In this document: one piece after another, positions 13,241 to 64,000 of the stretch
Numbering within the stretch: the first letter of the stretch is position 1
Layout: each line of letters opens with the position of its first letter
Source: Diplocarpon mali
Taxonomy: Eukaryota; Ascomycota; Leotiomycetes; Helotiales; Drepanopezizaceae
Length of the DNA stretch: 64,000 nucleotides
Reading direction: 5' to 3'
Assembly (NCBI GenBank): GCA_024741835.1
Contig: JAENRP010000243.1
Location: 1 to 64,000 of the forward strand
The notes under the pieces: model-generated
The model's input: the letters and a program-made list of their open reading frames with translations, nothing else
Databases searched by the model: none
What the model was told of the DNA's origin: nothing
Made by a program: the position numbers and the translations under genes

Positions 13241-14560
13241 ATGACCTCTAATCTTATACCACTTAAGAGAAGTGAAAGGTTAACCGCACCTCTACTACTA
13301 GGCCTTACTGCTACTAGTTCTATAGGCCTTACTGCTAACCTTAGTCCTAGAGATATTCCCCTTCTTAAGCCTATTTAAGAAGCTACCTCCCCTAGTACAG
13401 ATTCTACTCCTAGGCCCGGCCTATAAGTGGATTCTCGAAATACCCTATTACTATTAATTAAAGTTAAGGAAGAAGATATACTCTCCTTAAAGACATCTAT
13501 CTTTACTATATTAGCCCCTCTCTTTTCAGCTGCTTAATAGGCCGAAATCGCAAACCTTATTAATACTGCTATAGCCGCCGCTTTTTAAAATAATACTACT
13601 GCCCCTTCTTCCTTAAGTGCTAGCCCTTAGAACACTTAGTCCCTTACTGCCGACTTACTACCTCCCTTAGACTACTACCTCTTAATCATCCGACCTTTAG
13701 TCTTAGCCGTCGACCCTTATTAGATTAAGTACCTTTAAACCTATTTTAGCAACTACTAAAGCGAAATCACTTATAACGCTTAGAAGATAGCTATAAAGGT
13801 ATTTATTTAAAAGTACTTAGGCAACTTCACTTTAAAAAAGGACTAAATCACTGCCTACTTTAAGTATATAATAGGTAAAGCTTAGAACTTAATCTTATAA
13901 TATATAGATCCTATCTTTACTAATGAATTTATATATACTACTAATATCCTTAGGGTCTTAGATTAAAGGTTCTTTAATTATAACTATATTCAGTCCGCTA
14001 AGCTTAAATATAGCAAGCTAACTATAGGCTTAATATTATATAACAAGTTCTAATCTAAGTTTATTACCCTTACTATAGCTAGTAAGATCAATCAGTCTTG
14101 CTAGTTCGATAACATTTATAAAAAGGTCTCCTTAGCCTTAAAGAACGACCTTTAAGTAAAGAAGTATAAAATAAATAATAATTATATTACTTTAGATAAG
14201 TTCTTAGCTATTGCAAACCGCGAGGCCTATAATATTAAGTAAGAAGAAGCCTATAACGCTCGATAAGTCGCCCCTGCTATCGCATTCTCCCTTTTAAAGG
14301 ACCGCATCCTTAGCATATTAAAAAGGGAGTTATAGAGACCTATAGTTATAGCTACCTCCTTAGCTCCTTGCACTTATTCCCCTTTGCTAGTAGCCTATTA
14401 AGAAAGGTCTGCCAGCTTAAAGCCGTTATTTAATCTCTATTATAATTGCAAAGCCCTTAGTTACTATATAATAGACTGCCTTAAGCTAAAGAAGCAAGGC
14501 GAGTTTATAATAGCTAAAGTTAAGATAGAAAACAACCTATTATTAGGAAACTGCTAAGCT
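13241..14560 (+). pseudogene. G1 gag
   Basis: The Gag frame opens with ATG at 13241 (M-T-S-N-L-I-P-L) and remains readable, with TAG/TAA at Gln or Trp positions, to a CCHC knuckle at about 14434-14485. There the sequence reads Y-Y-N-C-K-A-L-S-Y-Y-I-I-D-C, where Y replaces the first Cys and the His (TGC to TAC, CAC to TAC), so two of four zinc ligands are lost. One copy of the 23-bp palindrome lies in the N-terminal part (13406-13428), encoding T-P-R-P-G-L-x-V. Gag would form the particle; the knuckle binds RNA. Confidence 0.82.
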
Positions 14561-14599
14561 ATAGCAAAGACTCTTACTATAGCATAGGTTATAATTTAT

Positions 14600-15700
14600 A
14601 AAAAGACTTAGATTTTAATTCCTACCTATTAATAGGCGGCCGCCAGTTCTTAGTTCTTATAGAACTAGCTTAAAATAGATCATTTATTAAAATAGTTGCC
14701 TATATTAATAGTAGAGCTAATATTTTCGGTATTATTAAGACGTCTTTAGTATACTAGCTCTTTTAAAAACTTAGGGTAAAGTTCATTAAACTGCTTAAAC
14801 CAATTACCCTTATTAGCTATAATAGCCTTAAGGGAGAAACCATTCGATTTGCTATCTTACTTACCTTTATAATTAATAGGCGATAAATAAACTTCCCTTT
14901 CCTAATTATAAGCTTAAGAGCAATTAATATTTTAATCAATAGGAAGTTCTTAAAGTACTATAACCTTAAATAGTCTTATAAAAGGGGGAAAAATAGTATC
15001 TTTTAACTTAAGGATATGCCTATTATTTCCTACTTTAATTAACGTATATTAATCGATCTCTTATAGCTAATAAAACCCCTAATAGCTTAGTAAGATATCA
15101 ATCGTTAAGCAGCTATAATAGACGCTAAGGATAAAGACCTAAGAATAGCCTAAGCCTAGCTCTTAGTACTAGTAAGTAATAACTCGAATTCCACTCCTAG
15201 GCCTGGCCTACAAGTAAAAACTGCAAACTCAAATTCCATTCCTAGGCCTGGCCCGCGAGTGGCCTCTTGCAAACCTAAGGATAGCAGTTTCTTTAAAGAC
15301 TTAAAAAGAGATCTGAACTATATAAAGAAGGCCTTACTAAGAGTACTAGACCCTTTGCTTCCTCTTTTAGTAAATAGAAACGCCCTTTTAAAGATAGCTT
15401 ACTAGATTAGCTTAATCTTAGCCTTAGTAATCGGCGCCCTTTACTATTACTTTATAACTAAGGTAAGATAAGCTATATAAACTTAGGAACTAGCACTTAA
15501 AGAGTTTATATTTGTAAGCTCTATTTATAATTTAAATTAAGAAATCAATCGCTAAGAAATCAATCGCCGAGAATCGGTTAGGCAAGCTGAAATTAGCTCC
15601 CTTGGCCTTAGTTCGGCGCTATAAGCTAAGTATAAGAGTAATAATAAGCTAATAGACCAGAAGCTCTTGCCTTAATACACTAAGTTTAAGAATATCTTTA
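14600..15700 (+). pseudogene. G1 protease and protease-RT linker
   Basis: The retroviral-type protease active site is seen at about 14669-14730 as A-Y-I-N-S-R-A-N, a mutated I-D-S-G-A. A linker follows with Asn/Ser-rich sequence and two tandem T-x-R-P-G-x-x-V repeats (15193-15260). Next come a basic helix (K-D-L-K-R-D-L-N-Y-I-K-K) and a hydrophobic stretch of about 18 residues (I-S-L-I-L-A-L-V-I-G-A-L-Y-Y-Y-F) near 15405-15460 that would suit a membrane segment. Such a segment between protease and RT is unusual, and I do not know its role. G2 has the same linker. Confidence 0.65.
15193..15260 (+). repeat. Two palindromic RPG repeats in G1 pol (45-bp period)
   Basis: Two copies of the 23-bp palindrome start at 15193 and 15238, exactly 45 bp (15 codons) apart, and read T/I-P-R-P-G-x-x-V. 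The homologous position in G2 (48077-48189) has three copies at the same 45-bp spacing. Confidence 0.9.
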
Positions 15701-17100
15701 ATCGCTAGGCCTTTAATTAGCTACTAGAACCCAGGCTAAAGGTAGATTATAAAATCGAGCTAATAAGCGAGAATAACTTAACAATTGAACCCCTTTACCG
15801 CTTTACTAATAAATAGCTCTCAAAGGTCAAGAGCTATATTCTCAAGAACTTATATAAAGGATTTATCAAAGCTTCGAGTTCCCCTTAAGCAGCCCTAATC
15901 CTCTTTATTAGAAAAGCTAATAGCTCCTTATATCTATATATCGATTACTAGAAACTGAATGCCTTAATAAAGAAAGACCCCTATCTAATTCCACTTATTA
16001 ATAAGATAATAATACGTATATTAAAAGCTTATGTTTTTATAAAAATCGATATATAATAAGCCTTTTACTATATTTGCATATTAGCTAATACTAAAGACCT
16101 AACTACCTTTCGCATATGCTATAGGACTTATAAGTATAAGGTTTTACTATTTAAGCTAAAAAATAGGCCTGCTACCTTTTAAAGGTTTATTAATAATATT
16201 CTTCTTAAGTACCTCGACGATTTCTACTCTACTTACTTAAATAATATTCTAATCTACTTAGAAAACTCCCTTAACTATAGGATTTATATTAAGAAGATCT
16301 TAGGAATTCTCTAACGCTATAGCCTTTAAGTAAATATTAAGAAAAGCAAGTTTAAAGTTACTAAGACTAGATTCCTAAGGTTTATTATTAGAGTTTATAA
16401 AATTAAGGTAGACCCTAATAAGGTCTTAGTCATTTAAGAGTAGAAATACGCTAAGAATATATATAGTATATAAAGCTTCTTAAGGTTTTATAACTTCTAC
16501 TAAAGGTTTATTCAAGGCTATAGCTATATCTGCCGACCTTTAATAGCTCTTATAAGAAACGTTCCTTTTAATTTTAATAATGCTTATAAAGAAGCTTAGG
16601 AAGCTTTGCGCTTAAGCCTTTAAATAACCCCGATTTTATACTACTATTACCTTTAAAAGTAGATAAGGCTTAAGACCAACGCCTTTAATAGCGTAATTAC
16701 TAGCGTACTTTCTTAACTCCAAGAAGATGATAACTATTACCTAATCAGGTACTTCTTAAAGATAATGAATAATACTAAGCTAAATTACCTTATTTATAAT
16801 AAAGAGCTCTTAGCGATTTTTAAATCGTTCTACTAGTATAAGGCAGAGCTACTTAAGGCTTAGAGAATAGTATATATATATATAGATTATAAAGTCCTTA
16901 AGTACTTTATAATAATTAAGGACTTAATAGCCTAGTAGGCTCGCTAGGCGGAGTTCTTCGCTAACTTTAACTTCCTTATTATATATCAAATAGGTATAAT
17001 GAATACGCTAGCTAATACACTCCTATATTAAGACCAGGAGCTAACCTCTTTTAAGGCCAGGAAATGAGCTTTATACTACTAGCAGCTCTTGCCCGACGAC
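15700..17100 (+). pseudogene. G1 reverse transcriptase and RNase H
   Basis: RT motifs are legible in order: I-D-Y-x-K-L-N-A-L, the (Q/R)-A-F-Y region, and the catalytic box Y-L-N-N at 16234-16245, in which both aspartates have become Asn (GAC/GAT to AAC/AAT). The thumb and RNase H follow with Y-N-K-E-L-L-A-I at about 16797 and Y-I-D-Y-K-V-L-K-Y-F. This matches Ty3/Gypsy RT-RNase H of fungal chromoviruses. In G2 the same catalytic box reads Y-L-N-D, so damage is independent in the two copies. Confidence 0.88.
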
Positions 17101-18500
17101 AAGCTTTCTATAGAAGTACTTGCTACTAAAGGCGGTTCCATTCGCGGGCCTAGCCTATAAGTGATAAGTATGCCAATCGCACTAATAGAAGCACCTGCCG
17201 ACCTAATGTCTAAGGTTAAGTATAATATAGCGAACTATCATATTATTAATAAGGTCATTTAAGCTAATAAGACCTCCCTTAAGCTATAGAAGTTCTAAGA
17301 CAAGGCGTAGAGCCACAGCCTCGACTATAAACTCAGCTAAGGCAAACTCTTCTTTTAAGGTAGACTTATTATACTATTATAACCTCCTGAACTATAAACA
17401 GCCCTAATTCGTTATATGCATAAGCAACCTTGCGTCGCATACGCTAGAATCGGGAAAATAAGGCTTTTAATAGGAAGAAAATACTATTAGAAAAGCCTTA
17501 CTAGCGATATTAGTACTTATATCTAAAACTATTATTATTCGAGAATAAAAGCTTATTATAATAAAACCCTAGGTTTCCTATAACCCTTGCCAATTCCTAA
17601 ATAAGCATACTAACACTTGACTATGGATTTTATAAAGCTCCTACTTAATAAACTTAGCTATAACTTTATACTAATGATAATAGACCGATTATTAAAGAAG
17701 GTAGTATTAATCCTATGCTATAAGACAGTTGATGCAAAAGGCCTTGCAAAGTTGTTTTTAATTTATTAAATACGCTATTTCAATATGCCCGACTCGATTC
17801 TATTAAATAGAGGCGCCCAATTCGTCTCTACCTTTTAAAAAGAGCTCTATTAGATACTAGGTATAAAGGTTAAGCTAACTTTAGCTTATAACCCTAACGT
17901 CGATAGCTAAACTAAGATTATAAACTAGTACTTAAAATAATGCCTTAGACTATTCTACTTATACTACTAAGATAATTGGAATTATCTCTTACCTTTAATA
18001 GATATTACCCAATTGACCTTGCCTTATAAATCCCTAGGGCAAATTTCCCCTTTCCAAGTGCTAAACAGCTATAAAGCTCGCTCCTCTTAGAATTTAATTA
18101 ACCTAGAGCCTTTATAGATAGCAATTAAGAGATTAAATTATAAAACGGCGCTTCGCATAGCTACTAGAGCTTAAAAAGTAGTCCAATTCGCTTAATTATC
18201 TCTTTAAGTATAATAGGCTAAAATGAAACGGCTTATAGACCTTTATCGCTAGCCAGTTGATTAGACTATAGGAGATAATATACTAATTAGTATTAAAAAC
18301 TAGAAGCTCGATCGGCCGAGCCGAAAGCTCTCTAATAAATAGTATAGCTTAGTAAAAGTACTAGAAAAGCTAGGAGAAAGCTAAAAGCTACAATTGCCTT
18401 ATTCGCTCTATTCAATCTACCCTATATTCTACTCCCACTTACTATATAAATACATTCCTAACCCTCTGCCAGGCCAAGCTTAAGAACCTCCTACCCTAAT
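17100..18500 (+). pseudogene. G1 integrase
   Basis: The integrase inserts cDNA into chromatin. The core starts with H-L-T-M-D-F-I at about 17611-17630, retaining the first Asp. The second acidic site reads N-R-G-A-Q-F (about 17806), Asp changed to Asn. The third reads D-S-Q-T-K-I-I-N, where the usual T-E is T-K. The zinc domain near 17400-17540 has lost its Cys pair (Y-Y-Y-S). The C-terminal domain shows D-x-T-I-G-D-N-I-L-I-S and D-R-P-S-R-K-L-S. One palindrome copy (17140-17162) sits in the RNase H-integrase linker; G2 has two there. Confidence 0.85.
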
Positions 18501-18529
18501 TAAAGTACTATTAGAATAAGAAGAGTAGG

Positions 18530-18800
18530 AGATAAAAGAAATAATTAGATCTTGTATTCGAGCTAAGAAGCTCGAATATCAGATTAAGTAGAAAAGAGCT
18601 AATAAAGACCTCGAATAGTACCTATGCTCTAACGCTATAATAGCGCTATATACTATTTAAGATTTCTATCTAAAGAACCCTTAAGCTAAGGGGCTACCAA
18701 AGGCGCTATTAAGCTAGCTTAAGTCATATAACAATAGAGTTAACAATTATAAGGACCTAGAGGATAATACGCCTATAGATACAACTGCGCGAGTGCAGTT
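18530..18800 (+). pseudogene. G1 chromodomain
   Basis: The C terminus reads as a chromodomain: R-A-K-K-L-E-Y-Q-I-K-x-K followed by D-L-E-x-Y-x-C-S-N-A and D-F-Y-L-K-N-P-x-A-K-G-x-P-K-A-L-L. This is the layout of fungal chromovirus integrase chromodomains, which steer integration to methylated-histone chromatin. Aromatic-cage tryptophans are replaced by TAG. It ends just before the polypurine tract. Confidence 0.8.
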
Positions 18801-18802
18801 TT

Positions 18803-18819
18803 TCAAAGGGGGAAGGTAG
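18803..18819 (+). promoter_or_regulatory. G1 polypurine tract
   Basis: The purine run CAAAGGGGGAAGGTAG immediately precedes the 3' LTR and is the expected plus-strand primer. The equivalent in G2 is on the minus strand at 34702-34720. Confidence 0.75.
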
Positions 18820-19060
18820 TATTACGGCCGCATCATATGCATAGTTATATTATATATCGAAGTCAGGTGTACGCTAAGGTAGTAAGGTGGCTAGATCATA
18901 TGCACGCTAGTAAAGCACCTATACTTATTCTGGAGAAGCTCTACTAAAGACTCTCTCTTCTTCATCTTTTCTTCTCTATTATATAGCATACCTCTTGAGG
19001 TAATACAGTCAGCATTACTCGATTATCGCCCCTCTGTACGCTCCAGAGCAAGTCGTAATA
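18820..19060 (+). repeat. G1 3' LTR, 241 bp
   Basis: It begins TATTACGGCC and ends AGTCGTAATA. The inner part carries more TpA changes than the 5' LTR, and the outer part fewer. Confidence 0.92.
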
Positions 19061-19065
19061 TGTAC

Positions 19066-22177: not shown

Positions 22178-22460
22178 CACCCCTTTAGGGAGACCTTTAA
22201 AGGTACTCGCCAGCAATATATATAATGTTATAACTTTTGTTATAATCTACAGTTTCGCATGAAAAATCAACCTGCAGATATAGGAAATAGAATAGAGTTC
22301 GCTAGTGCGAAATCCACCCCTTAGTAAGTCAAAATCAACTCGCGGGCCCGGCCCGGGAGTAAAAAAAATCACCCCTTAATGGAAGTGTAAAAAAAATCAC
22401 CTTATAATAGAGGTATAAAAAAAAATCACCCCTTAATCGAGGTGCAAAACCTTTATATTT
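22178..22460 (-). repeat. F 3' non-coding region: purine tract, palindrome and 28-bp tandem repeat
   Basis: A tract read on the minus strand as CTAAAGGGGTG (22178-22192) abuts the LTR as the likely polypurine tract. A GC-rich palindrome copy lies at 22338-22360. Three tandem units of about 28 bp follow (22361-22388, 22389-22416, 22417-22445), each with an A8-9 run, then ATCACCCCTTAAT-like sequence and a short variable tail. On the minus strand these resemble extra copies of the purine tract. Confidence 0.7.
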
Positions 22461-23085
22461 AACAATTTGATAAAGGCGGCGTGGTTAGAGCTATTTAAGC
22501 TCTTAGTAAGTCTATTAGCGGCGTTATCTTTGGTATTAGTATACTAGAGGTCCAAATGGCCTTTCCAAAGCTCTTGCCGAATATAATAGAACTTAATATC
22601 GATATGCTTTATTCTCTAATAATATTCGGGGTTTTCGGTAAGATAAAGGGCTCCTTAGTTATTGCAGATTATCTCGACTTTAGTAGCGTTATTACTAGCA
22701 TAGCCCATGTCCTTAAGTACCTGGCGTATCTAAGAGGCCTCTTATGCGAATTTGCATATAGCGATATACTCTACTTCTATAAATAAGAGAGCGATAATAG
22801 TCTATCGCTTAAAGGAGGCGGTAATTACGCTATTATTAAGGAAGAAGACGGCCCCAGAATAGGAGGCTCTACTTCCTCTATTACTTGCCTAGTCAGAATC
22901 GCAGTAGCCGTGCAATTTCTAAAGCTCTAGGTTAATTGTTTTACTTCCAAAGGTAGTATAATAGAATCGCGTTCCTTGCAAGTACTATAAAACTCGTTTT
23001 AAAGCTGCTATATATTATAGCAAAGGGTTAGTAAGGAATTTACTAAGAATAGAGCAGTAGTATAGTATATCCTAACGCGTATAGT
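22460..23085 (-). pseudogene. F RNase H, cut from RT by element C
   Basis: On the minus strand the Copia RNase H signature is legible: a Y-C-D-S-D-x-A-like start, R-A-S-Y-S-G-A-V-F-F, A-L-S-S-I-E-A-E-Y-I-A, and then K-H-I-D-I-K-x-Y-Y-I-R-Q-E, ending near 22460. The RT to which it belongs ends at 25998 on the other side of C. The plus-strand open frame at 22556-22786 is antisense to it. Confidence 0.82.
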
Positions 23086-23327
23086 ATAAGAGGAAGCAGG
23101 AACAACACAAGAATAGGCCTATATGAAGACCAAAGACAAGAGGGAGGAAGCACTATAAGCGGGCTCTCCGAAGATAAGAACTAGGATAATTTACTAGTTA
23201 AGGGTAGAATAGGTAGTTGGCATTGCGCGCTGTTTCTAAGTATAATAGTAGTCCTATATATACCCCTTTCTCGGTCCTCTGACTATATGACCTATATTAC
23301 GAGATCCTCTACTTCTAGGTCTCTATA
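23086..23327 (-). repeat. C 3' LTR (coding sense), 242 bp
   Basis: It runs from ATAAGAGGAAGC to GGTCTCTATA. The inner end (towards 23327) is clearly more TpA-rich than the same region of the right LTR. Confidence 0.85.
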
Positions 23328-23499
23328 TACGCCCTAACTAACTTAAGTAGCGGCCTCCGCTACTATTAGCAAAGAATATAAGACTCTTATAGGTTGAGAA
23401 TACCAATCCCTATTTGTAAAAACAATAAGTGTAAGTAAGGTTAGTACCTAAAGTCGTAAAGGTAAGGAGAAAAGAGAGGGTTTTTTTTTAATTCGCAAG

Positions 23500-25340
23500 T
23501 CAGGCCCGCGAGTGGATTTCAAAGAAATATATAAAGGGAGAGGGGAAAGGGAAAGGGGAGAGGTATAGTAGTAAATGAATAAAAATGATAAAAACTCCTT
23601 TTCCTCCTTTGGTAATCCGACTCCTAGTCTAGGACTGCGAGTTAAAAGCTTAAAGTTGTTAAAGCTATTAAATCGCAATTTCAAAGAAAATTTAATAATA
23701 ATTTCAAATAGTCCTAAGTATATATGCCCTAACCAACTTAAGAGGCGTTCTTGCTAAAGAAAATCCAGGCTTTATATAGAATTCGATTAATAATCTAGGA
23801 ATTCCTTTAATATAGCTGTTTATCAAGCCTTTCTAAGGTGGCAACTCGCTTATTTAACCTAAGGGAAGCTGGATTTAGGTATTCAGAGTTTGCGTATTAG
23901 TTTTTACCTTTTAAAGCCTATCGATTACTAAATTAAAGGGCGCGATAAGTTTCCTAAAGAAGGCCTTCAATTGAGGTTTCCAAATATTAAATGCGGAGTT
24001 TAGAAAACTAGGCTTCAAGTTCCTTGATTTTTAAGGCAGATTTCACTCTTAAGCTAAGACCGCGAGTAAAAGGAATCACTACTGGATTTCTCTTTGCCTC
24101 TTTAATAACCTCTAGAGCCTTTAAATGTTCTTGCACCAGGCTTTTAAGATCTTTAATAAAAGAGGAGGTAAGCTCTTTCTCCTTTTCTATTACTTTAATA
24201 GTCCTTTCGCTAAGGTCTGCTTTTAAAGCAAAGGTTAAGAAGTCTTCGAATTAAGCATATATTATAGGATTACGCTTATCAATTCTAAAATGCTTAATGA
24301 TTTTATTTTAAAGGCTAGTAGGCAATCTAAGTAAGAATAGGCATCCTCTTTCAACTTTACTAAGAATCTTCTAATCGATTAAGGTATTCGACACTTAAGT
24401 AAAGGTCCGATAGTAGTTTTTAAGTTCCTTAAGAGTGCGAGTAATAAGAATAAACTCCTTTAGAAAGGCTAAAGTATTATAAATCTGCTATCTATCAAAT
24501 TCCTAAAATTCAGCTTTAAAAGCCTTAATAAATAGTTCTTAAGACTTGCGAAGCTTCTACTTAAGTAGAGATTTAATAATATCTTTACTAATTTAATTGC
24601 AATAGTAGGAAAGTCAATTAATCATCTTATAATATTTAATATCGAAATTATAATAAGTCTCCTTATATTATTTAAGGAAATTAGTAATATTAGCTCTAAA
24701 GAAATAAGGAGCGCTAGGAGAACTAGGGAAGGGAAAATGATTAGTAATAGCTTTAAAAGCGGCTATTATTACTTTATTTGTTTTAATAAGAAGGAGGGAG
24801 TCAGATCGAATATAAGGCTTATAGTATTCTAAAGAGTTTTCAAAATCCGAATCAATCTTAAAGTAATTAAGGCGAGCTTGAAAAGATTTAGGCAAAGGGT
24901 TAATAGGAGGTTTAAAATTGATGTTTTTAAGTATTAATATTAAAAAAGCAAGTATAGTTATCGAAAGGGAAGATAAAGAACTTAAGTTATATAAAATTGT
25001 ATTTTTATATTCCTACTCGCAGGCCTGGCCTAAGAGTGAAAATCCGGCTTCTATAAAAAGTTTATTTATACTTTGCTAAGACTTCTTTAGTAGGTATAAA
25101 GTAATAAATAAAGGTACTATAATTACTAGCAGTAAGAAAAGGTTTATTAAATCAAAGACTAATTTCTATAATAAAGTTTCTAAGAAAGATTCATCTTAGC
25201 TTTTAAGACAATTCCTATTAGTTCTTAGAATAAAGGGGTCTTTAGAGATGATTCTAAGGCAGTTTTCAAAGTCCTATTGAATAGGGGTAGCTGAAGTATC
25301 CGATTTAACTTTTTAAAAAAGCTAAGGAGACACTCCCGAT
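23500..25340 (-). pseudogene. C gag
   Basis: The minus strand encodes a long helical frame, best preserved at 24668-24895 (M-P-K-S-F-Q-A-R-L-N-Y-F). From there to about 24340 it reads F-L-K-x-Y-K-E-T-Y, then I-x-R-L-S-Y-Y-C, then A-F-K-A-E-F-Q-E-F-D-R-Q-Q-I-Y-N-T-L-A-F-L, and L-I-D-x-K-I-L-S. This matches the recurrent fungal retrotransposon Gag pattern (F-L-x-x-Y-E, F-x-x-x-D-x-x-Q, Y-T-x-x-x-L). Four palindromes lie here (23491, 23620, 24045, 25015), read as T-x-x-P-x-L-x-V variants. Small plus-strand open frames here (23575-23757, 24024-24254) are shadows. Confidence 0.68.
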
Positions 25341-30090: not shown

Positions 30091-30122
30091 AATAGAATTT
30101 GTCGAATGCTATTTATAGGCAT

Positions 30123-49848: not shown

Positions 49849-49881
<33 letters not shown>

Positions 49882-52743: not shown

Positions 52744-52881
52744 CCCCTACTTAAACCTTACTCCAATTAACCTATAGTTAGGAAAATAACAACTATCCTT
52801 TTGCGCTAATCTAACTCTTAAGTATCTCTTTAAATTAAAAATAATTAATTAATAGCAACCTCTATTAAAATCACTAACCCT

Positions 52882-53031: not shown

Positions 53032-53034
53032 TAT

Positions 53035-56000
53035 CCTTAAGCCTATTAAGCTCCTACTATCTTTTGCAACCTTAGTATATCTTTAAACGCTTTGAACTTT
53101 ACAACTATCTTTAGTAGCTTTGTAAATCTATCTACTACTATTCGATCGGTTAGGATATAAGTGATTAATAACTTATTCTTTATAATAAGGTTGTAGATAA
53201 AGTGGTAAGTAATATTAATATATTTTAATCGCTTATATAAGTATGGATTCTTTATAAGTGCAATCGCCCTTATATTATCTACTTAAAGATTAATATAATT
53301 CCTATCTTATCTAATATACTTAGCGAAACCTATATCTTTTAGAACTTAAGCGATTTATAATCCTTACTTGCAATTTGATAATATTAATATATATTTGGCC
53401 TTAATGCTTATAATAGCTACTGATTTCTACTTCTTATTTCCTTATAATATAAGTCTACTATATAGTACTACTACACTTCTAGATATACTTTTCCAACCTT
53501 TTATATTTGCCTAATTGGAATTAGTATATACCTTAAGCTTTGCGCTTATATATTTTATTAGTCTATATCTCACCTTTTATATAATTGTCAATTAAAGGTA
53601 TCTTTTAAGTCGCTTAACTATATTCTTATATTAAATCGTTAGATCCTTTAGGTTTTGACTAAGTTACTTAATAATAAAGGCGATATCTAGTCTTATATAT
53701 ACTATAGTATATATAATTGCTTTAATATCCTATTAGTACTTCTTTAGATCTCCTTTCTACTTATTTTTATTAATAAGCTTTAATTTATTATACTTTCCTT
53801 CGATTGGGGTATACTTTAGCTTAAAGTTAGGAGCATAAGTAAAGAGTCCTATTCGGTCTAGGATCTTCTTAATATACTACTCTTAGTCTAACTAGAGTTC
53901 TTAAGTAGAACGGTTCCTTATAACGCAGATGCTAAGGATCTTATGAATTCCCCTTAGATCCTTAGTATTAAAACGTTTCCGAATTGTTATAAAGAACCAA
54001 TTTAATTAAATAGTTATTTTTATAGCTATAGTAATATTATTAATATATAGTAGCAACTTGATTCTACGCTTAATATAGGTAAATAGATAAGGGTTAGCTA
54101 GGCTTTGAATAAATCCTATTTCTACTAAAGCAGAGCTATATAAGAGGTTTTAATTATAGGCTGATTATTTGAGCTTATAGATACTATAGAGTATATAAAA
54201 AGAGTGGCTAGCGCGTATAGGAATATTATTAGGTTAGGAGAGAAAAATCCGTTCCTTTATAGTCGCTTTAGTAAATGTATTTTTAATATTATACTATCTG
54301 CATTTAAGGTCCTTAGTAGCTACTATTACTATAAATATGCAAAGGGTATTTATATAAACTATTAGTATAAATATATCGAAGTAGTCTTTTCTATACTATT
54401 AGGAAAAGCCCTTAGCTATAAGCCTTGCCTTATAACATTCTAAGGTCCTATTTATATATATCTTAATTATAAAGACCCACTTTGTTAATACTAAGTTCAC
54501 GTCCTTTGGCATTAGTTCTTCTATCTATATACTATTTGCAATAAGAGAGCTTATCTCCTCTTAGATTGCCTTATTCTATACTACTCTATTCTCTAGATTG
54601 TTAATAGCTTTATTATACGTCTTTAGAAGAGAGATTTTCATTATTCCCTTAGTGGCTAAGAATGTATTATCTTTATTAAAGCTTTATTAAAGTTTGAGCT
54701 TGTAGATCCTATATACTATTATAGCCTAGATACGCTTAGACTCGCGTTTATCTAAGGTGTCTTTCGGTTTTAGGTCTCTATTCCTCTTTAAGGACGTAGG
54801 TTCAGCTGTAGGTTCTATAGGCTTATTATCTAAGGAACCGCTTTCTAATAGTAAAGGCTTATTATTACTTATACCTATTTTAAGAATATCCTTTACCTTA
54901 GGTACTTTAACTAAAGGGATAATAATATTAAAGTTGTTTTATACTTTAGGTAGTTTGCAGATAATAAGAATAGTCTATTTAGCCTTTAGGCGATTAGCAG
55001 GTTATCGATTAGCAGGTGCGCTTGATATGCTTAAGCTAAGAGAAAGGGGTTATTAGTTCGACTTAATAGTATTACTATTAAGTAGTATACCTTGCGAATC
55101 TTTAGGTATATAGAGTTTTAAAGATAGTTCCTTCCTATTTCGAGATTCGTTAAGCTTAACTATTAAGGATATAATTACTTGCTTTAGATTAGGTATATAT
55201 ACTATCTATTGCTTTATTATCTATTTAATATATTTAATAAATATATACTCTCTTCCTCAGTCTATTAGCTTCTTACTCTTTATACCTATAGGCTAGGACT
55301 TTAGGCTAATATAGGAGTAGTAGACGCTTTTAAAAATGCAAATATAGTTTAGGCTTAGTTTCTATTTAAAATATACCTTATATAGTAATATTCAGGTGCT
55401 ATTGACTATTAGTCTACTACCTATTCTATTTCGCAAGTATACGTCTGCCTTAACCGCAAGGTCCTAGAATTCCAATAGTAAGTCAGCATCTTATAGTAGA
55501 GTATAATAATTAGTCTCTGCTTGCTAGATGCTTTGCTTAATAATACTATTCTAATAGGAACCATTATATATTATAATTGGTTTATAACAAACTCCTTATT
55601 TTACTTATTTATTAAGCTTTACCTTAATCTCTAATACGTTATTAGACTTAATAGCTATTAGCTTTAACTAGGTCTAGCGTTCCTTTATCACTTTCTAAGT
55701 TTCTAGCTTTTTTATAAGCTTAGATTTAGTCTTAGCGCAAATAGTCTATATTTGCTAAGTAGAGTTATTTACTATTTAAGAAAACTAATTATTTCCTTTA
55801 ATTAAGGTTATAAATAGTCCGGTAGTATTAATAGATATTAGTGCTAGTATTAAATCTTTCTATAAACTAAGCTTAATTTGCGTCCGATTTTAAAGTTTTA
55901 TTAGCTTGCAAATTTAATATACTAAGCGATCCTTTAGTACTTAGATCTTCCGTTTTAGAGTCGAGACCTTATACAAGCCCTTTAATTTCTTTAGCCTTAA

Positions 56001-56130
56001 ATATGCGAATCTTCTATATATTAGCTAATACCTTAATAGGCTTTTAGCTTTTAATAGCTTTAATAGCCTATTATCAATTGATACTTTATTATTAGCGGCT
56101 AGAAAGGACTAGTAATAGCAGTTTAAGGTT
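53035..56130 (-). pseudogene. B3 pol: integrase, reverse transcriptase, RNase H
   Basis: The minus strand is colinear with B2 pol. RNase H has A-S-x-K-A-E-Y-like residues near 53390, and RT has the catalytic Y-I-N-N at about 54035-54050, both Asp lost as in B2. Fragments match B2 residue for residue (F-K-D-V-G-S-A-V-G-S-I-G on the opposite strand at 54757-55056 is an antisense shadow). Integrase fragments lie at 55200-56100. Confidence 0.83.
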
Positions 56131-56142
56131 TTACCGTTTTCT

Positions 56143-56612
56143 AGTTATAAGCCTAGCTTAAGAGTCGTTTTTAATAAAACCGCGAGATCTACTTGCAGTC
56201 TTAGCTTAAGAGTCGATTTCCCAGAAATAGTAAGATCTACTTACAGTCTTAGCTTAAGAGTTATCTTTAATAAATTTGCGAATTTCACTTGCAGTCCTAG
56301 CCTAAGAGTCATTTTTGCAAATTTCACTTGCGATCTTAGCTTAAGAGTTATTATTAGCGAAATTATAAAATCTACTTATAGTCTTAGCCTAAGAGTTATT
56401 TCTATCAAATTCACTTATAATCCTAGCTTAAGAGTTATTTTTAAAGACACTTTATAATCTATCTATAGTCCTGGCTTAGGAGTTATTTTTGCGAATTTTA
56501 CTTATAATCCTAGCGTAAAAGTCTATCTATTCTCTTTATCCTTATTTAATTATATTAAGGTAAAGAGTGCACTTTCCTTAAAGGAATCTACTTATAGGTT
56601 TAGCCTAAGAGT
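56143..56612 (-). repeat. B3 array of ten RPG palindromes
   Basis: Units start at 56143, 56191, 56239, 56287, 56326, 56374, 56413, 56461, 56500 and 56590. Spacings 48, 48, 48, 39, 48, 39, 48, 39 and 90 are the exact mirror of B2, so the array existed in their common ancestor. Confidence 0.92.
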
Positions 56613-56749
56613 CAATTTCTATAATATCACTTTTAAGATAATATAAAGTCTATCTTTAATTTTAACTTTAAAGATCACTTTATAATTATTATTTATAAAC
56701 TATATAAATTAATTATTAAAAACTCCTATATAATTCAACTTTATATAGA

Positions 56750-58139
56750 TCTTGCAGCTAGATAAGAGATTAATACTTAAGCTAGGTATAAGGAGAACAT
56801 TTTGCAAAAGGAAAGAAATGCTAGCGATATTTATCTTTATTATACTTATTAAGTCTATATATAACCTTCTATTACCAATCTTAATAAAGCGCCTTTTTAT
56901 TTTAATAAGTAGGCCTTTAAATAAGTAGGGTTTATTAATTATATATACTATATAACTAGTATTACTATACTAATCAGATTTAAAGATCTTATAAAGATCG
57001 GCTTTTAAAACGTAAGTATCTTTATTATAATTATTATTTAAATTATTAGAAGTGGATTTAGGTTTAGATAACCTATTATTATTATTAAAGGTATTTGCTA
57101 AAGTTCTAACTAAATAGCCTTTTCCTTTACCTTTCCTTAGTAGTTATAGCCTTTGGTAGGATAAGGGCAGTTTACTTCTTAACTTTTGCTTCGATTACTT
57201 TTTAATATTAAAGCTAATAACTATATTAATCAATTGCCTTTTAACTTTATAATTAGTAATATTATAAGTACTATTATAGAAATAGTATCCCCGATGAGCT
57301 TAAGGGCTTATCCTACGCTCCTTTCTCTTTTTAGGCTTATTATTGCCTTATAATATAGCATTTGCCGATTTAAAGCGTCCTTTAAGGTCTTACTCAATAG
57401 TTCGAAAGAGGTCGATCTTCTTATAGATCTTAAGATTGGGTTAGATAAGAAGAGATTGTTTTACAATAGCGAACTTAAGAGGGAGGCTATTAAGTAGGAA
57501 ACTAAAAAGCTGAGTTTCCTTAAAAGTTATAGCTATTTTAAGATCTGCGGCTTTTACTTTCCTTTTCGCTTTATATAGTATAGATTAGGTAGAGTTAATA
57601 TTTATATTTATATCCTTGCTATCTTTATCTTTTCTATATTAAAATGAAGTGATTTACTATAGTAGATACTAAGTATTAAAGGCAGTTGTTTAAGAGTATT
57701 TTGCCTTTAAAGTATCCTATCTTATCTTTATATTATTATAAATTTAAATAAAATCTTAGTCTTTATTACTTAAACCTCTATTAATCTTAAGCTTGCATTT
57801 AGCTAAGGCCAACTTATACTCCTTCTCCTTTTCTATATTTAAAATCTGCCTTTAGGATTCTCGGTTATTATCTACTAAGGCTCTTAAGCTAAGCTTATTT
57901 AATATATCTGGCAAATCCTTAGCAGTTATATTAGCTATTAAAGTAGAAGTAAACGAATCGGTAGAGGGAGTATAGAAGGCTATTCTTGCGTATTTAATAA
58001 ATGTCTTTTGAATTACTATTTCGATGCCTTTGCTCTTAAAGTAAAGCTCTAAATCGTTAAACTATTATTGCCAATTCTTTCGAAAGAGTTAGAGGTCTTT
58101 AGGCTTAGTGTTTTAATCAGAATCGGAAGCTATTGCCAT
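56750..58139 (-). pseudogene. B3 gag
   Basis: The gag ATG is at 58137-58139 on the minus strand (M-A-I-A-S-D-S-D). The frame follows B2 gag through the degraded knuckle region (about 57250-57295) and the basic run near 57110-57140. RIP stops are frequent. Confidence 0.78.
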
Positions 58140-58286
58140 TTCGAATAGAATTGCGTTGAAAAATCAAATAAATTAAATGGTTAAGGGCACTCTTCCTATT
58201 GAAAAGTCGAAATGATTAAATAGCAGGTATTATAGAAGTATTAAATAGGGAGGAAGTCCTCTTATCGAAAAGGGTTTTTTAGACTA

Positions 58287-58425
58287 TAACGCAGGGAATC
58301 ACACCTCTTACGAAATATAGTAAAGTAAGGAATTATACCTCTTATAGTATTAAAAGGGTTATAGAGCAAGGAATCATACCTCTTGCAATATAGGTTAGCT
58401 GAATAAGGAATTACACCTTCTATTT
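58287..58425 (-). repeat. B3 leader repeat, four motif copies
   Basis: Copies of GGAATCACACCTCTTA-like sequence between gag and primer site, as in B1 and B2. Confidence 0.72.
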
Positions 58426-58528
58426 ACCGATTGCTCGCCTCTTACTACGAGTCTTATTCAACTTCCTACTAATAGTTGCGGCGCAAGTGCTTTCTAAGGG
58501 AAGTTAATAATCTATTATCAGTTTATCT

Positions 58529-58541
58529 AAGGCTTATAACC
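58529..58541 (-). promoter_or_regulatory. B3 primer-binding site
   Basis: The minus strand reads GGTTATAAGCC directly inside the 5' LTR, complementary to the initiator tRNA-Met anticodon loop apart from one RIP change. Confidence 0.72.
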
Positions 58542-58736
58542 TATTAAGCTTAAGTGAGTTAGGGCAATAGGTAAAGGAGGCTTCTAAAGGTCGATAGTTA
58601 ATATATTAGTAAGAGTTAAGGAAGGAAGGTTACCCCTTTCTTCCCTATAGCTATATACGTATCAATATCCTACTGACTAAGCAGTAGGGTCACATGACAA
58701 TACATCGGAGTGATGGCTGTATCACCTATCTCAATA
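58542..58736 (-). repeat. B3 5' LTR (coding sense), 195 bp
   Basis: It runs from TATTAAGCTTAAG to CTATCTCAATA. The outer (right) part keeps CACATGACAATACATCGGAG, which is mutated in the left LTR. Confidence 0.94.
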
Positions 58737-59202
58737 CTTCCTATATAATAAAATGATTTAATACCTATATCGCTCTTGCTATAGGTTAATATATCTTAAA
58801 AATCTTACTAAGTCCCCGCAAAGCATTATTAGCTATAATATTATTTATAAAGTGGCTTCGAAAGAGCGTTTTATATATTCTATTTATAAATTGCATTAGT
58901 CTTTTTATATACTTATTTTTCTTATCTCAATTCTTTTAAAACAAATCAATCGAATTAGCATACCCCTAATATTCTTATAAAAACTTCTCCCGATCGATTC
59001 CCTTAGTCTTAAGCTCTTTCTTAAGAAAATCGTCGAACCTTAAAAATCCTTCTTTAATAGTAGAAATTCTGTAGTTTAGTACTTCAATAGACGAATTTAG
59101 GAATACTTATTACTCTGTTTCACCTAATGTTCTATAGGTAGTTATAATATCTTCTAATAATCTTAAAGCTTTTCCATCTTATAAAAAGCTACCCTTTAAC
59201 AT
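58737..59202 (-). pseudogene. D accessory ORF X2, N-terminal part
   Basis: A start is possible at the ATG 59200-59202 (M-L-K-G-S-F-L), though coding-like sequence continues upstream to about 59400. It reads G-K-A-L-R-L-L-E-D-I-I-T-T-Y-R-T-L, L-R-F-D-D-F-L-K-K-E-L-K-T-K-G-I-D and A-R-A-I-x-V-L-N-H-F-I-I-x-E, where B3 cuts. Joined to 52543 without B3 and one CTTCC, the frame continues unbroken in length: 3,357 bp to the stop, or 1,119 codons. It resembles the N terminus of X1. Function unknown. Confidence 0.62.
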
Positions 59203-59850
59203 TAGTTCATTGCTGGCGGTATTTATTAACTAGCTGCCTAAGGTAATAATTAATATATTTTTCTTAAGTATAGCCTTTTTGCTTAAGCTCAATAGTGCTA
59301 TAATGAATTATTTAGCAAGGATAAGATAATAGAACTTATAGAAGCTTATTTAAGGTAGATTAATAAGATAGTAAGCTTGTATTAAGAAAGAATTGATGAT
59401 AGAAGATAGTAGTAGTAGTATTACTAGTACTAGTACTAAGGTTTAATAGGGTTATAAAAAAAAAAAAAAAAAAAGTATGATTATAATATAAAAAGAGGTT
59501 TATTTATAAAGATAGAATCATACTAGTATATAAAGAAAAAGTAGGTATAAAGAGGCTAGAAGTAGGAACAAAAGTAAGGTATGACGTATATAAGGACCTA
59601 CAATTAGTAAATAATAATTTATCAAAAGTAAAGATAATATTTCAAAGGTAAGTATTAGAAAGTTGCATACAAAGGGAATAATCGAAGAATGAATTATATA
59701 AAGAGTAAAGTAAAATAAAGAATATATATAGAATAGAATAATAGGTTAAAAATAAAGGGATATAAGTATATAGGAAGTAGATAATCTTAAAAATTCAACT
59801 TCTAATTTGCAATTTCTTTAAATAGTTTTTAAAAAAAAAGGGAGGTAGAC
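59203..59850. other. Spacer between X1 and X2 with simple repeats
   Basis: No gene is supported. A run of about 18 A (59457-59474) is preceded by an AGTAGTAGTAGTATTACTAG simple repeat (about 59409-59440). It may contain the 5' untranslated part of X2. Confidence 0.5.
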
Positions 59851-62800
59851 TTAATTCTCTAAATCATCTGACTCAATTATCAATTATATTATTACTTTAG
59901 AGTCTTCTTCTCTTATATTAGTTCTTACTTCTTAGCGATTTCTTAGCTTCAGGGACCTCTCTTAAAGGATCTTCTATTAGTATCCCTAGATTTGGTAACT
60001 AAGGTTCATTTGAATTATCTTATAGGCTTAAGCCAGCCGAGTCCAACCTCACTCGCAGGCCAGGCTTATAAGTTAGTCTTAGCGTTTCTAAGCTTAAGGG
60101 TAAAAATAGGAGATTGGTTCTTAAATTAGGGTCTAATGCTATAATAGCATCTTAATTCGTCTCTTTTCCGAATTTTCTTATAATAATGCCTTTATTAATT
60201 AGTATATTAGGCTCTTAGATAGCATTTACTTTATTGCATTATCCCTAAGACTTAAGTCTATAAAGAAGCGACTTAATATTTGTAATATTTGTCTAGGCCT
60301 TAATAAGGGCATTAAAGAGCTTTTAATTATATTTTATAAAGTAGATTTTCAATTCGTCTTTATTAAGAAGAAATAACTCCTATACTTTAATTATAACCGA
60401 CGGATCTGTCTAAGAGTATTAACTAATAATAGCTTTAAAGAGGCTGCTATAGTTCTCAAGATGAAAAGCTGCCTTAAAAGGTATAGTAGTTCTATTTATA
60501 TTAATCTATCTAAGTACTAGAGGTTACTTTAAAGCAAAGATTGAAAAGATAAGATCGGAGATTTAAGTCTTATTTTCTAAGGTATTCTTATTGCAAATAG
60601 CCGTATAGTTATTGCAAAAGGCTATAAAGCTACTAATTCTATAAAGTTTATTTAAGCGCATTTTAAGAAGGTGCCCTTATTTTATTATTACTATAATAGG
60701 GTTACTATTATTAATAATAGGCTATAAGATCTCTTTTTACTTTATTTTTATAGTTATATAAGCTAGTTAAGATTTTGAACTAAGTGCTTAAGAAGTCTAT
60801 CGACTTATCTTCTTTGCGGATAGAGTGAGTTTTATATTCGACTAAGAGCCAACCTACCTATTAAGACTTTTAGTAGCTGGCCCTTATCTGATTAATAGGA
60901 TCTAATAATCTAAGACTTGCTTTCTAATAAAATTGACTCGCAGGCTAGGACCGTAAGTGAAAATCGGAATTTCTTTATTAATAGCACTTGTATCTCTCTT
61001 TATTAAAACGACTTAATTGTAAAGACTAAGGCTAATCAATTAAGGAGGTTTAAAGTAGGCTATAAGCTAATAGGCTCTTCTACTTTTCGCTATTATAGCT
61101 AAGAGGTAAAGTCTATAATACATTTGAAGGACTTATTAAGTAAGATTGAATATTATATTATAAAGAAAATAAGAAGGTATAAAGGTTGCATTATCTATAA
61201 GGTGGAAGTAATAAAGGTACATCTTTACTTTTTATCTTATAATAGAGAGGAATATACCTATAAAGGTACTATTATTAGTAGTAAAATTGTCGGTTAGGAA
61301 GCGGCATCTAAAGGGTTTAGGCATTATAATTGACCCTTCTTCCTTTATTTCCTCTTACTATTTATTACTTAATAATATCGAAAAGAAGGAATTGTTCCAT
61401 TTAATCGGCTCTAATGCCTTTAAGGCTTTAGGATTAGCCTTGAATTTTATAGTACTTAAAGATGCCTCTATTATTAATAGGTTAGATTTGCATATCCTTA
61501 AAGAGATAAAGAATTGATTATTAAAGTGGATTAGAAAAAGATCGACATCTTTTATTATATAAAAAAGTTTAAGGTATTTAATAGTTTTATTAATATCAAA
61601 TCCTTTATAATTAAGACTATAGTAAATTGAAAGAGAGCGAATATAAAGGTCGCAAAGTCTTTTCCCTTCGATTCTTACGCTAGGAAGATACTATCGAAAG
61701 TGAGTTTTTATTATAGAAAATACTTAAATATTATATCATTCTCTAAGCTTAAGGTTAAGAATAACTAATTAAGGCATATTGCTATAATTATAAATGTCTT
61801 AATTAATAGATTCCTCTTTGTGTTCTCTTTCTTATAAAATAAAATAGTCTCGCTTAGCATCTAAAAGACTAGGTTCTTAACTTTTATAATTATTAAAGAA
61901 TTAAATAATATCTATAAGGGCGAACTCATTTAAGATAAGCTATTAAATCTATCTAATAGCTCTTTTACTTATCTTTAAAGTAGTAGAAATAGGGTCTTCC
62001 CTTATATTATCATTTCTAAAACAGTTGCATATAGATATAAAGAAGTCAAGAACTAGCTCCTTTAAGTTATTAAAGAAGGAGTTTAAGTAAGCGTGCAATC
62101 CTTTAGTTTTAAATTGCAAATTAGCTAAAGTAGCTATTAAACGATCTATCCTTCTTAAAGGTTAAGCTAAAATAGGTCGTTTAGCTAAAGGAAAGTCCTT
62201 TAAAGATTCTGAAAACTCCAAAGAGACTATATTAAGCGTTTAAGTAATTTGTTTAATAGCGGTTTTTAAAATCATTTTAATAAAAGGCAAGTTAAGTTTA
62301 ATTTTAAAATTCTTATTTCTAACTCTTAGTTTAAGACCGCAAGTCAAATTATATAGTTTAGTACTTATTATATCTTTAAGTTAAAAAGCGAATTTCAAAG
62401 CAGGCTTAACTATAAATAACCAATTCCCTTCTTTATTATTAAAAAAATCTCGTCTAAACCCTATTATAGGAGTCTAGTTCTCTTTTAAAATAAGCAAACT
62501 ATAAGTAGAAGCGCAAAGCCTTAGCATATTAATAATAGTACTATTAAGTAAGGTAATATCTATAGCCCAATTTGATCTTTTTATAGTCCTATTAGCTGCT
62601 ATAAGTACTACATTAGATAGGCCTATAAATCTGCGACCGCAAATTCGATTACTTTAAAATTTTACTACTCTTTCTTAAATAATAAAGAAATTAAGAATCT
62701 AAATAGCTCTAGTAGTAAGAGTATTTTCCTTAAGAATTTTTAATAATACTTATCTTCTATTATTAAAATCAATATTTGTCAAGAAGCGCAAACGAAATAG

Positions 62801-63190
62801 GAGTCCTCTTTTATTAATAGCTAAATTATCCAATTATTAAATAGATTCTTCTCTTTTATCTTAATCTATTTTAAAAGTATTAGCTAAGGTTATATATTGA
62901 TTTGCATCGGCTAAGAATTCCTCTTTAAAGATTCCCTTTAATCTTAATTCTTCAATTAAGAAGTTGTCAAATTAGAGAATTCCAAGGGCTACTTAGGTTA
63001 AAAGGTTATTAATAGCATTCGCATAAGCTAAAAGGAGTTTTTATTACTTTATATCTCTTAAGGCTACGTAGGTTGATTTAAAGTTCTTTAATAATGCAAT
63101 AGCTCTACTATCCTAAGAGAAGTTTATAACTAGTATTTATTTATCCCCTATTATAATAGGCAAAACCATTTGTAAGTTCTTTAAAGGCAT
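59851..63190 (-). pseudogene. D accessory ORF X1
   Basis: A former ORF of about 1,113 codons runs on the minus strand from an ATG at 63188-63190 (M-P-L-K-N-L) to TAA at 59851-59853. The length is not a multiple of three, so at least one indel is present. It reads I-L-x-F-D-N-F-L-I-E-E-L-R-L-K-G-I, T-R-A-I-x-I-L-N-F-F-I-I-x-E and F-I-V-K-P-A-L-K-F-A-F, then a helical middle and an acidic C terminus (I-I-E-S-D-D-L-E-N). Its first 170 residues parallel X2. Palindromes at 60051, 60935 and 62322 are in frame. The plus-strand open frame at 61287-61517 is antisense. No known family; it sits where env-like or accessory ORFs lie in some Gypsy elements. Confidence 0.58.
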
Positions 63191-63499
63191 ATTGCTTATA
63201 AAAGATAGGAAGTATAAATAAGAGAGTTTAATAGGATATAAGAATTAAAAGGGCATATAAGCTATAATAGGTTTACTATATATATATTAAGGAAATTAGA
63301 CTTTTTTTTTATTTATTATTTAAGGAAAGTAATAGGAATGCTATAATTAAAGGCTAATATTAAGAATGTAAAATAAGTCAGAGTAGGCAAGAATTTAAAG
63401 TGATCCTAAAAGATCTATATCTTAAATAATAAAAGAGGCGACTTTGCCGAAAATGTAAAAATAAGGATTATAAGAAGGCAGGATAATTAATAGGCTAGG

Positions 63500-64000
63500 A
63501 AATCGCTTAATATTCCCGCTTATATTCTTTGGATATTTTAAGAATAATAACTTAAGGTCGCGATTAGTTAGGTATTTTAATATTCTTTACTTGCAGGACT
63601 AGCTTATAGGTTAAGTTGGAAAAATCTTGGTCTTTATCTAAGGGTTTAAAATTGCTTATATTGCTATCGGTTCCTATAGAGGATTCGGAGGTTATATTAA
63701 TTTCTAATTCGATTTCCAAAGGGAATAAGGTCTAATTATATTAATAAAAGCACTTTAGTCGGTTAGCTGCAAAGGTTCCTTTAATATTAACTCTATTAAG
63801 TTCCTAAAGAGAATAGTATCCCTTTTCTTTCTACTTAAACTTAACCTTAAATAGACTAAGCTATTAATAGTCAAGTTTAGTATCTACTGATATATTAATA
63901 CTTCTTATAATATTATAAACTAGGATAAGATCATCTTTTCAAATAGGGTGCGTTTTAAGTACTTTAGAAGCAGCCTATGCTTCTTTAGCTTTTTCCTAAT
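63500..64000 (-). pseudogene. D integrase, C-terminal end (continues beyond window)
   Basis: The minus strand from the window edge reads K-D-D-L-I-L-V-Y-N at about 63900-63930, then L-F-K-V-K-F, then G-Y-Y-S-L-x-E-L-N-R-V-N-I-K-G-T-F-A-A-N-R-L-K about 63750-63830. This is the Gypsy integrase C-terminal pattern (G-D-L-V-L-V-R-N, Y-x-L-x-E-L-D-G, F-A-A-x-R-L). A further palindrome (63589-63611) is in frame as T-Y-K-L-V-L-x-V near the end. It anchors D as Gypsy and shows that X1 and X2 lie downstream of pol. Confidence 0.72.

Follow-up and report, generated by a model that had tools for sequence, protein, structure and literature searches.

Which described sequences most resemble a short palindrome scattered through fungal retrotransposons? 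MITEs are short and dispersed and have an inverted-repeat structure. Both organelles and bacteria are reported to carry short mobile palindromes (PMC10969869, PMC7218506, PMC4478555). The GC clusters of yeast mitochondria (GC42) are short, GC-rich, dispersed palindromes with many copies and conserved arms, for which partly RNA-mediated copying is suspected (PMC4478555), and the PstI palindromes of Neurospora are likewise short, GC-rich and dispersed (PMC7218506). The Rickettsia palindromic elements (RPEs) are bacterial and about 150 bp long; many of them add an in-frame peptide within unrelated proteins, and they are reported in metabolic genes (PMC10969869). Finally, work on Ty3 describes PAL6, 6-nucleotide palindromes near the 5′ end of the LTR-retrotransposon RNA (PMC11381356).

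We analysed a stretch of 64,000 nucleotides from the ascomycete Diplocarpon mali (contig JAENRP010000243.1; hereafter the window), for which the original prediction had described about 53 scattered copies of a GC-rich, almost self-complementary 23-bp unit. That count was accurate: an iterated profile gives 54 window sites above 9 bits, where five block-shuffled windows average 0.4, and 27 sites have at most 3 mismatches among the 16 fixed bases, where shuffles expect 0.04. The genome scan that had been suggested finds 315 exact sites (reversed control, 0) and 2,289 sites when transitions are permitted at eight fixed positions (control, 1). Every one of the 315 exact sites also has Y at −2 and R at +2, which extends the core from 23 to 27 bp: YN-ACTC-NNN-GGCC-N-GGCC-NNN-GAGT-NR, a pattern that 50 of the 54 window sites fit and that can be refined to YN-ACTC-NYR-GGCC-N-GGCC-YRN-GAGT-NR. 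Extension of the palindrome to 35 bp, with AATT at its ends, is rare (3 sites). The dyad leaves the bases free at its centre and at ±12 and has pyrimidine/purine at ±13. Self-complementarity is incomplete, positions 5/19 being usually C/C, so that the unit has a direction. The half-sites are always 1 bp apart; the genome count stays at 315 when the gap is allowed to vary from 0 to 9 bp. Half matches in the sampled loci (both halves, both strands) fall within a full unit in 309 of 332 cases, some of the other 23 being decayed units, and on these grounds we rejected the idea that the units are the ends of a longer transposon. Unlike MITEs, the unit has neither internal sequence nor a longer relative ending in half-units; target duplications, which RIP may blur, fell short of significance. 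A comparison of the window with the curated families of Rfam gave nothing at the gathering score, and literature searches for the same kind of unit found no match.

Five families hold 53 of the 54 window sites: two Copia (C and F), two Ty3-like (G and P) and one unclassified (K), for which Pfam searches of its pieces and a protein search with one piece gave nothing informative. Relatives of the host elements are fungal, and the source, apparently a plant pathogen, looks similar to Diplocarpon coronariae. Where the domains are known, units lie in gag, in interdomain linkers or in untranslated ends. For example, Ty3 element G (copy 13139-19061, + sense) carries one unit in its gag region (13406-13428; the equivalent unit at locus L023 lies in the gag/zinc-knuckle frame, phase 0), two in the PR-RT linker (15193-15260; RT frame in L023) and one in the RH-IN linker (17140-17162; RT/IN frame in L023). 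A second G copy, split by later insertions (34449-36388 and 46157-49013), has a unit in the RH-IN linker (36359-36381), one on the other side of the split (46175-46197) and three at 45-bp spacing in the PR-RT linker (48077-48189, − sense); there may be a nested insertion near the unit at 36359 / 46175. A weak profile match at 46296-46318 (15.5 bits) is doubtful. Copia C (− sense) has one unit in its 3′ untranslated part (22338-22360), past the pol stop and, in L018, in phase 2 with respect to pol, two in the IN-RT linker (27146-27216) and two, in the opposite orientation, in the gag-PR linker (28607-28683; TREPGLGL and TRKPDLGV). The nested Ty3-like P (LTR copy 23082-25990, − sense) carries two units starting at 23491 and 23620 (23491-23642), one in gag (24045-24067, the equivalent of that at 5313 in L015) and one 5′ of gag, probably in the 5′ untranslated part (25015-25037).

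Arrays occur in Copia F (39418-45603, + sense), where ten units spaced by 39, 48 or 90 bp lie between PR and the pre-integrase region (41540-42009; PR frame in L014) and three more lie near the 3′ end at spacings of 63 and 64 bp, not in one frame (45121-45270). A second F copy (52549-58736, − sense) likewise has a 10-unit array (56143-56612) and three units near its 3′ end (52882-53031). In K, one unit at an end adjoins a run of N (49554-49576); four (49969, 50791, 52021 and 52198; 49969-52220) have equal position modulo 3, as do three others (60051, 60936 and 62322; 60051-62344). A weaker match at 63589-63611 (19.4 bits) lies outside the mapped families. Three intervals are free of profile sites (everything before 13,406, 28,684 to 36,358, and 36,382 to 41,539), which agrees with the original statement that some elements lack units. 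Four gene-like or flanking stretches scanned at up to 4 mismatches also contained no unit. Units sit in retroelements on contigs of up to 560 kb, and gene-like stretches lie near several of them. Many window copies are equivalents of one another, recurring at one position across sister copies of an element. In the sampled loci, 205 sites reduce to 29 flank contexts, 28 after leaving out one chance match, and these are not 28 independent events because several belong to one array.

In coding DNA the unit keeps one phase. Every landmark-framed coding position is in phase 0, as are 68 of the 71 units within stretches of 75 or more codons free of stops, a strong bias that upholds the predicted fixed frame. 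Rescored on the flanks alone, phase 0 is best in 17 of 23 flank clusters against a flat null (the clusters are not all independent: four come from the F array and one is the chance match), and on this basis we rejected an artefact arising from stop codons within the unit. The peptide first predicted for both strands, T-x-R-P-G-L-x-V, is that of bleached copies, whereas those bleached less read T-[PR]-G-P-G-P-[RG]-V. Could the peptide be what matters? A flexible linker, protease cleavage site or similar function in retroelement polyproteins, spread by selection with the palindrome secondary, would suit the phase, the restriction of units in pol of C, F and G to positions between enzyme domains, and the fact that, under the unbleached reading, a transversion at position 9, 12 or 15 leaves the peptide unchanged. 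We consider this unlikely. The peptide alone cannot explain the unit, because two units in untranslated regions do not share the phase of the adjacent gene and because no otherwise exact genome site has a synonymous transversion at position 3/21 (0, compared with 293 otherwise exact sites with A at position 15); in addition, residues 2 and 7 change in inverted copies. A further 157 sites, counted irrespective of genes, are changed at position 14 and are neutral on this alternative. The 2A ribosome-skipping motif is DxExNPGP; a 2A peptide was rejected by eye, since the units read T-[PR]-G-P-G-P-[RG]-V without DxExN. One unit (P0003) reads TTNPGPRV, with no upstream DxE.

Selection could also act on the nucleic acid itself, keeping in several families a protein-bound dyad or an RNA dimerisation or packaging palindrome whose phase is merely tolerated. 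The symmetric pattern of free bases at the centre and ±12 with pyrimidine/purine at ±13, the fixed spacing and the presence of several units per element, in coding and untranslated parts alike, are what such a site might look like, and palindromes are reported to drive genomic RNA dimerisation of Ty3 in yeast (PMC11381356). A strong hairpin was found in two of six folded unit examples; the other four were unremarkable. Between contexts the centre base is free and the arms are fixed, yet the 5/19 mismatch persists in most of them (pairing in 3 of 28 contexts versus 3.1 expected from the columns), and across the 28 contexts no pair covaries clearly beyond what its column composition predicts. 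An RNA hairpin supported by covariation was rejected accordingly, leaving the predicted hairpin function, like the peptide function, weakened. Binding, moreover, would not require phase 0. We regard a selected nucleic-acid site as rather doubtful. The Ty3 palindromes share with the unit their place in LTR-retrotransposon RNA; the unit differs in being 27 bp long, dispersed along the element and usually mismatched at 5/19.

How did the unit come to occupy so many places? The predicted sharing between unrelated families, in both orientations, is supported: the domain pairs on either side of the units differ between Copia and Ty3-like elements, as do the untranslated regions that carry them, and the unit flanks cluster apart (blastn). 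The coding DNA of a single Copia element (L018) has both orientations, with TREPGPGV and TRGPGPGV in gag-PR and TPGPGPRV in IN-RT. Common descent of all unit positions, named beforehand as what would undo a mobile reading, is therefore unlikely. Old descent combined with recombination between families, for instance gene conversion at a unit that is itself immobile, would accommodate the end sequence D14 common to P and K and the presence, in both Ty3-like G and L015, of units in gag as well as between PR and RT; set against the differing domain pairs, untranslated regions, flanks and orientations, it strikes us as quite improbable. Descent, and likewise a selected nucleic-acid site, would also suit K, whose ORF1 and ORF2 are paralogues with 293 identities in 986 aligned codons (30%). 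With units masked, two of three unit pairs still map within 3 codons of each other, the third being unmapped. Across the three aligned unit pairs, amino-acid identity is 12/24 versus 295/962 elsewhere (p 0.04) and nucleotide identity 45/72 versus 1,343/2,886 (p 0.005, or 0.15 for third positions only). That such divergent ORFs have units in corresponding places suggests old, retained units rather than recent insertions.

Direct traces of insertion were sought as well. Among 85 aligned copies from eleven contexts outside three variable arrays there was no empty site, and thus none of the anticipated filled/empty pairs; the copies are not all independent and the sampling is biased against empty ones, most loci having been fetched for an exact unit. 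Nor was any of the suggested target duplications significant: over the 28 contexts, 600 tests gave a best z of 2.75, and RIP may blur duplications. The 13 best target-repeat scores are all direct repeats, a weak hint.

Unit-bearing DNA is RIP-bleached. The fixed words ACTC, GGCC and GAGT lack CpA and TpG and are thus RIP-inert, which explains part of the contrast between the unit and the AT-rich DNA around it. In alignment-based recounts, dead copies have little or no extra conservation of the unit. Distant pairs of dead copies show transversions at 27/828 positions in the unit versus 906/19,902 in the flanks, so that the unit drifts about like its surroundings; this speaks against a selected nucleic-acid site, with little bearing on live elements. 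Single-unit coding contexts give 146/6,877 in the unit versus 951/67,625 in the flanks, the opposite of conservation. Untranslated contexts give 2/14,559 versus 980/144,272, a comparison dominated by the C 3′ context, whose copies were fetched through exact matches. A much lower rate obtained for the unit (19/2,530 versus 337/5,280 in the flanks) was withdrawn, because array registers had been mixed and the sites chosen by the unit itself.

We propose that the unit, whose sequence, extent, spacing rule, positions, phase, two orientations and array steps are observed, is a retrotransposon-borne palindromic cassette of 27 bp that is copied to new positions within and between families, a reading to which we give a probability of roughly 0.4. 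Its carriers would be at least four LTR-retrotransposon families and one unclassified repeat family in a single ascomycete. The directional, dyad-symmetric DNA would be copied in either orientation into new sites, perhaps when reverse transcription switches template from one co-packaged RNA to another, and would persist where harm is small: in untranslated ends, in gag and in linkers between PR, RT, RH and IN. A 27-bp insertion would preserve the frame, and selection may have fixed the single coding phase. Arrays would then arise by local tandem duplication (45, 48, 39 or 54 bp), and later RIP would bleach the surroundings and leave ACTC, GGCC and GAGT standing out. Several observations favour the cassette: a near-identical unit in 28 flank contexts over five families and between different domain pairs; identity at the level of DNA (the 315/315 flanking bases, the fixed gap, the missing 3/21 transversions); the rarity of lone half-units; both orientations within one element's coding DNA; and the distribution of phases, with untranslated units out of phase, coding ones in phase 0 and none in the four gene-like or flanking stretches. 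Against it stand the 85 copies with no empty site, the lack of a significant target duplication and the apparent age of the K units. Selection is also not an obvious cause of the phase, because phases 1 and 2 are readable too. To our knowledge, no enzyme is known that would copy such a cassette. By the criterion set for the mobile mini-element first predicted, the phase bias is strong, and we infer mobility rather than demonstrate it.

Short, GC-rich, dispersed and present in many copies, with arms that are fixed between contexts but mismatched at 5/19, the unit recalls the mitochondrial GC clusters and PstI palindromes. In contrast to the GC clusters, which are mitochondrial DNA, it is nuclear, resides in retrotransposons, has a 27-bp core and is frame-locked in coding DNA; it also shows no filled/empty pair in the filled-biased sample, no significant target duplication and no covariation. 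With RPEs it shares palindromic structure, and its phase 0 at coding positions would match their in-frame peptides if it was inserted there; it differs in its 27-bp length, fungal host, location in retrotransposons and tandem arrays. Tentatively, we suggest that this 27-bp dyad represents a novel class of nuclear micro-element, one that may spread, in either orientation but one fixed phase, along unrelated LTR retrotransposons, in their coding linkers and at their ends, with DNA word and peptide both constrained. With approximately 2,300 copies in a single genome, strains could feasibly be compared for filled and empty sites. If the cassette reading is true, the unit would offer a test bed for how palindromes multiply, and a nuclear frame-locked palindrome in Copia and Ty3-like elements would imply that retroelement superfamilies exchange DNA. 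Should the unit prove to be a binding or dimerisation site, competing transposons would have a cis-signal in common.

What kind of sequence is the GC-rich near-palindrome scattered through the window? The original prediction put its copies at about 53, and this estimate is borne out. The pattern ACTC(3)GGCC(1)GGCC(3)GAGT has 27 matches in the window at up to three mismatches, versus 0.04 in shuffles, and with an iterated symmetric profile the tally rises to 54 sites, where a block-shuffled window yields 0.4. The genome (49.37 Mb, 676 contigs) holds 315 exact sites and none of the reversed pattern. When transitions are allowed at eight fixed positions and a flank rule is imposed (a pyrimidine at the second base ahead of ACTC, a purine at the second base beyond GAGT), the counts become 2,289 and 1. 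Allowing transitions is the right choice because the window bears a strong RIP signature: its TpA/ApT ratio is 1.49 and its (CpA+TpG)/(ApC+GpT) ratio 0.59, where two gene-like stretches outside this contig give 0.67-0.71 and 1.23-1.25. RIP-like bleaching runs along the entire window (TpA/ApT 1.38-1.61 per 8-kb block). Among the stop-to-stop stretches listed for the 64-kb window, only one reaches 150 codons.

The unit had been described as almost self-complementary and 23 bp long; the dyad stands, and the length does not. Every exact genome site (315/315) obeys the flank rule, as do 50 of the 54 window profile sites, against a background of 0.25, and extending the palindrome to 35 bp with AATT ends leaves just 3 sites. 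Varying the gap between the two GGCC words from 0 to 9 bases leaves the count at 315, and the gap is therefore always one base. Half-units are seldom found alone: 309 of 332 half matches in the retrieved loci, counting both halves and strands, lie inside a full unit; some of the other 23 are decayed units, and one is truncated where its locus stops. These results give a core of 27 bp in which the central base and those at ±12 are free to vary. The unit also has a direction: across 28 oriented contexts C predominates at both position 5 and position 19, and the two can pair in just 3, which is what the columns predict.

With the exception of one site, all 54 window sites lie within five repeat families. 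Family C is assigned to Copia on sequence matches: its pieces in locus L018 match gag_pre-integrs (E 2e-8) and, under the cut-off, SH3_retrovirus (E 1e-5), RVT_2 is found at the equivalent genome place (C21:6211-6957), and the RNase H end was identified by eye. F is likewise classed as Copia, from a weak Pol_BBD match (E 0.08) and reading by eye. The zinc knuckle, RT, RNase H and integrase motifs of G, read by eye, occur in the order that marks it as Ty3. P is classed as Ty3-like through locus L015, to which it is about 68% identical in DNA along 2 kb. In L015 an aspartyl protease was matched, and the start of RT was recognised by eye, Pfam returning nothing there but a weak, unrelated match. 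The distances of 1,009 and 2,078 bp that separate units in L015 recur on contigs C1, C4 and C7 of the genome set, and the L015-type element therefore probably has several copies. K (L005:1-7745; window 49014-52548 and 58737-63032) is unclassified. It has two ORFs in tandem, each of about 1,000 codons and sharing one frame, which are 30% identical (293 identities in 986 aligned positions, with an alignment score of 872 versus at most 59 in 20 shuffles); the K pieces tried gave no family match above cut-off, and a database search with one piece gave no match. For ORFs of two elements, database searches at E ≤ 0.001 found relatives in Diplocarpon coronariae only, 82%, 81% and 77% identical across roughly half the query in each case; the genome of that fungus is put at 51.2 Mb, with 34% repeats and 20.7% Copia, in PMC11527701.

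The elements are also nested. A 2.9-kb copy of P (23082-25990), with 244-nt direct terminal repeats 91% alike, lies within Copia C, and its end resembles that of K (repeats D10 and D14). Two mutually inverted F copies (39418-45603 and 52549-58736) are 89% alike; one is nested within K, and the other lies between direct repeats (36405-36704 and 45858-46157) that split a G copy.

C carries units in its gag-PR and IN-RT linkers and in its 3' untranslated part, and G carries them in gag and in two linkers, PR-RT and RH-IN. In F they lie close to the 3' end and also between PR and the pre-integrase region. L015 has units in gag, upstream of it, and in the stretch from PR to RT; the gag and upstream units are also present in the window's P copy. 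The K frame holds seven, counted at up to five mismatches, and an eighth K unit falls outside that frame. As predicted, Copia and Ty3-like (Gypsy) elements have the unit in common. No unit was seen within a recognised enzyme domain of C, F, G or L015, and four gene-like or flanking stretches hold none at up to four mismatches. The fixed frame claimed for coding DNA likewise holds against chance. Of the 71 units located in stop-free runs of 75 codons or more, 68 are in the phase beginning at ACT (phase 0), the exceptions being a chance match in locus L011, the upstream-of-gag unit of L015 and one in an antisense stretch across the gag region of G; when flanks only are scored, phase 0 comes out best for 17 of 23 clusters, where the null is flat. 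Wherever a protein landmark (from Pfam or by eye) or the K paralogue alignment sets the frame, the phase is 0: this holds for C gag-PR and IN-RT, for G gag, PR-RT and RH-IN, for F, for gag of L015 and for the seven positions in the K frame. The C 3' untranslated and L015 upstream units read in phase 2 relative to the adjacent gene.

Is it the DNA word or the peptide that is conserved? Changing T3 to A or G, or the mirror change at 21, is synonymous in phase 0, yet no otherwise exact genome site carries it, versus 315 normal sites. C15-to-A, likewise synonymous, has 293 sites (154 + 139), and a change at position 14, replacing Gly, occurs at 157 (68 + 89, a whole-genome count irrespective of gene position); C stands at this position in window sites towards the 3' end of F. 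Synonymy thus fails to predict the variable positions. Moreover, inverted units in the coding DNA of C have changed residues (TREPGPGV and TRGPGPGV versus TPGPGPRV). Peptide conservation is by itself insufficient to explain this, although the phase lock indicates that the peptide is also constrained. A functional peptide is an unlikely candidate for the origin of the unit, and a nucleic-acid binding or dimerisation site a somewhat unlikely one.

The original prediction also raised insertion of a small mobile element, and the traces sought did not appear: none of 85 aligned copies lacks the unit in eleven contexts outside three variable arrays (two of the eleven hold 2-3 neighbouring units), empty copies being under-sampled because most loci were retrieved for holding an exact unit, and no target duplication around units is significant. 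In the three arrays, a unit is missing from 4/13, 5/19 and 13/21 copies, many by 45-bp steps, and one unit of the G PR-RT array is shortened, perhaps by a 15-base deletion. Dead copies show the unit decaying at about the rate of its surroundings, which has no bearing on selection in live elements. Two units of the K paralogues, with units masked, lie at matching places within 3 codons (chance 0.0005); old descent of the unit nevertheless seems to us improbable. Mitochondrial GC clusters and Rickettsia palindromic elements are among the closest published relatives found, and by membership tests the unit belongs to neither; a literature search, with subscription papers mostly outside its reach, found no description of it. 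We tentatively propose, at a probability of about 0.4, that the unit originated as a copied, retrotransposon-borne palindromic cassette.
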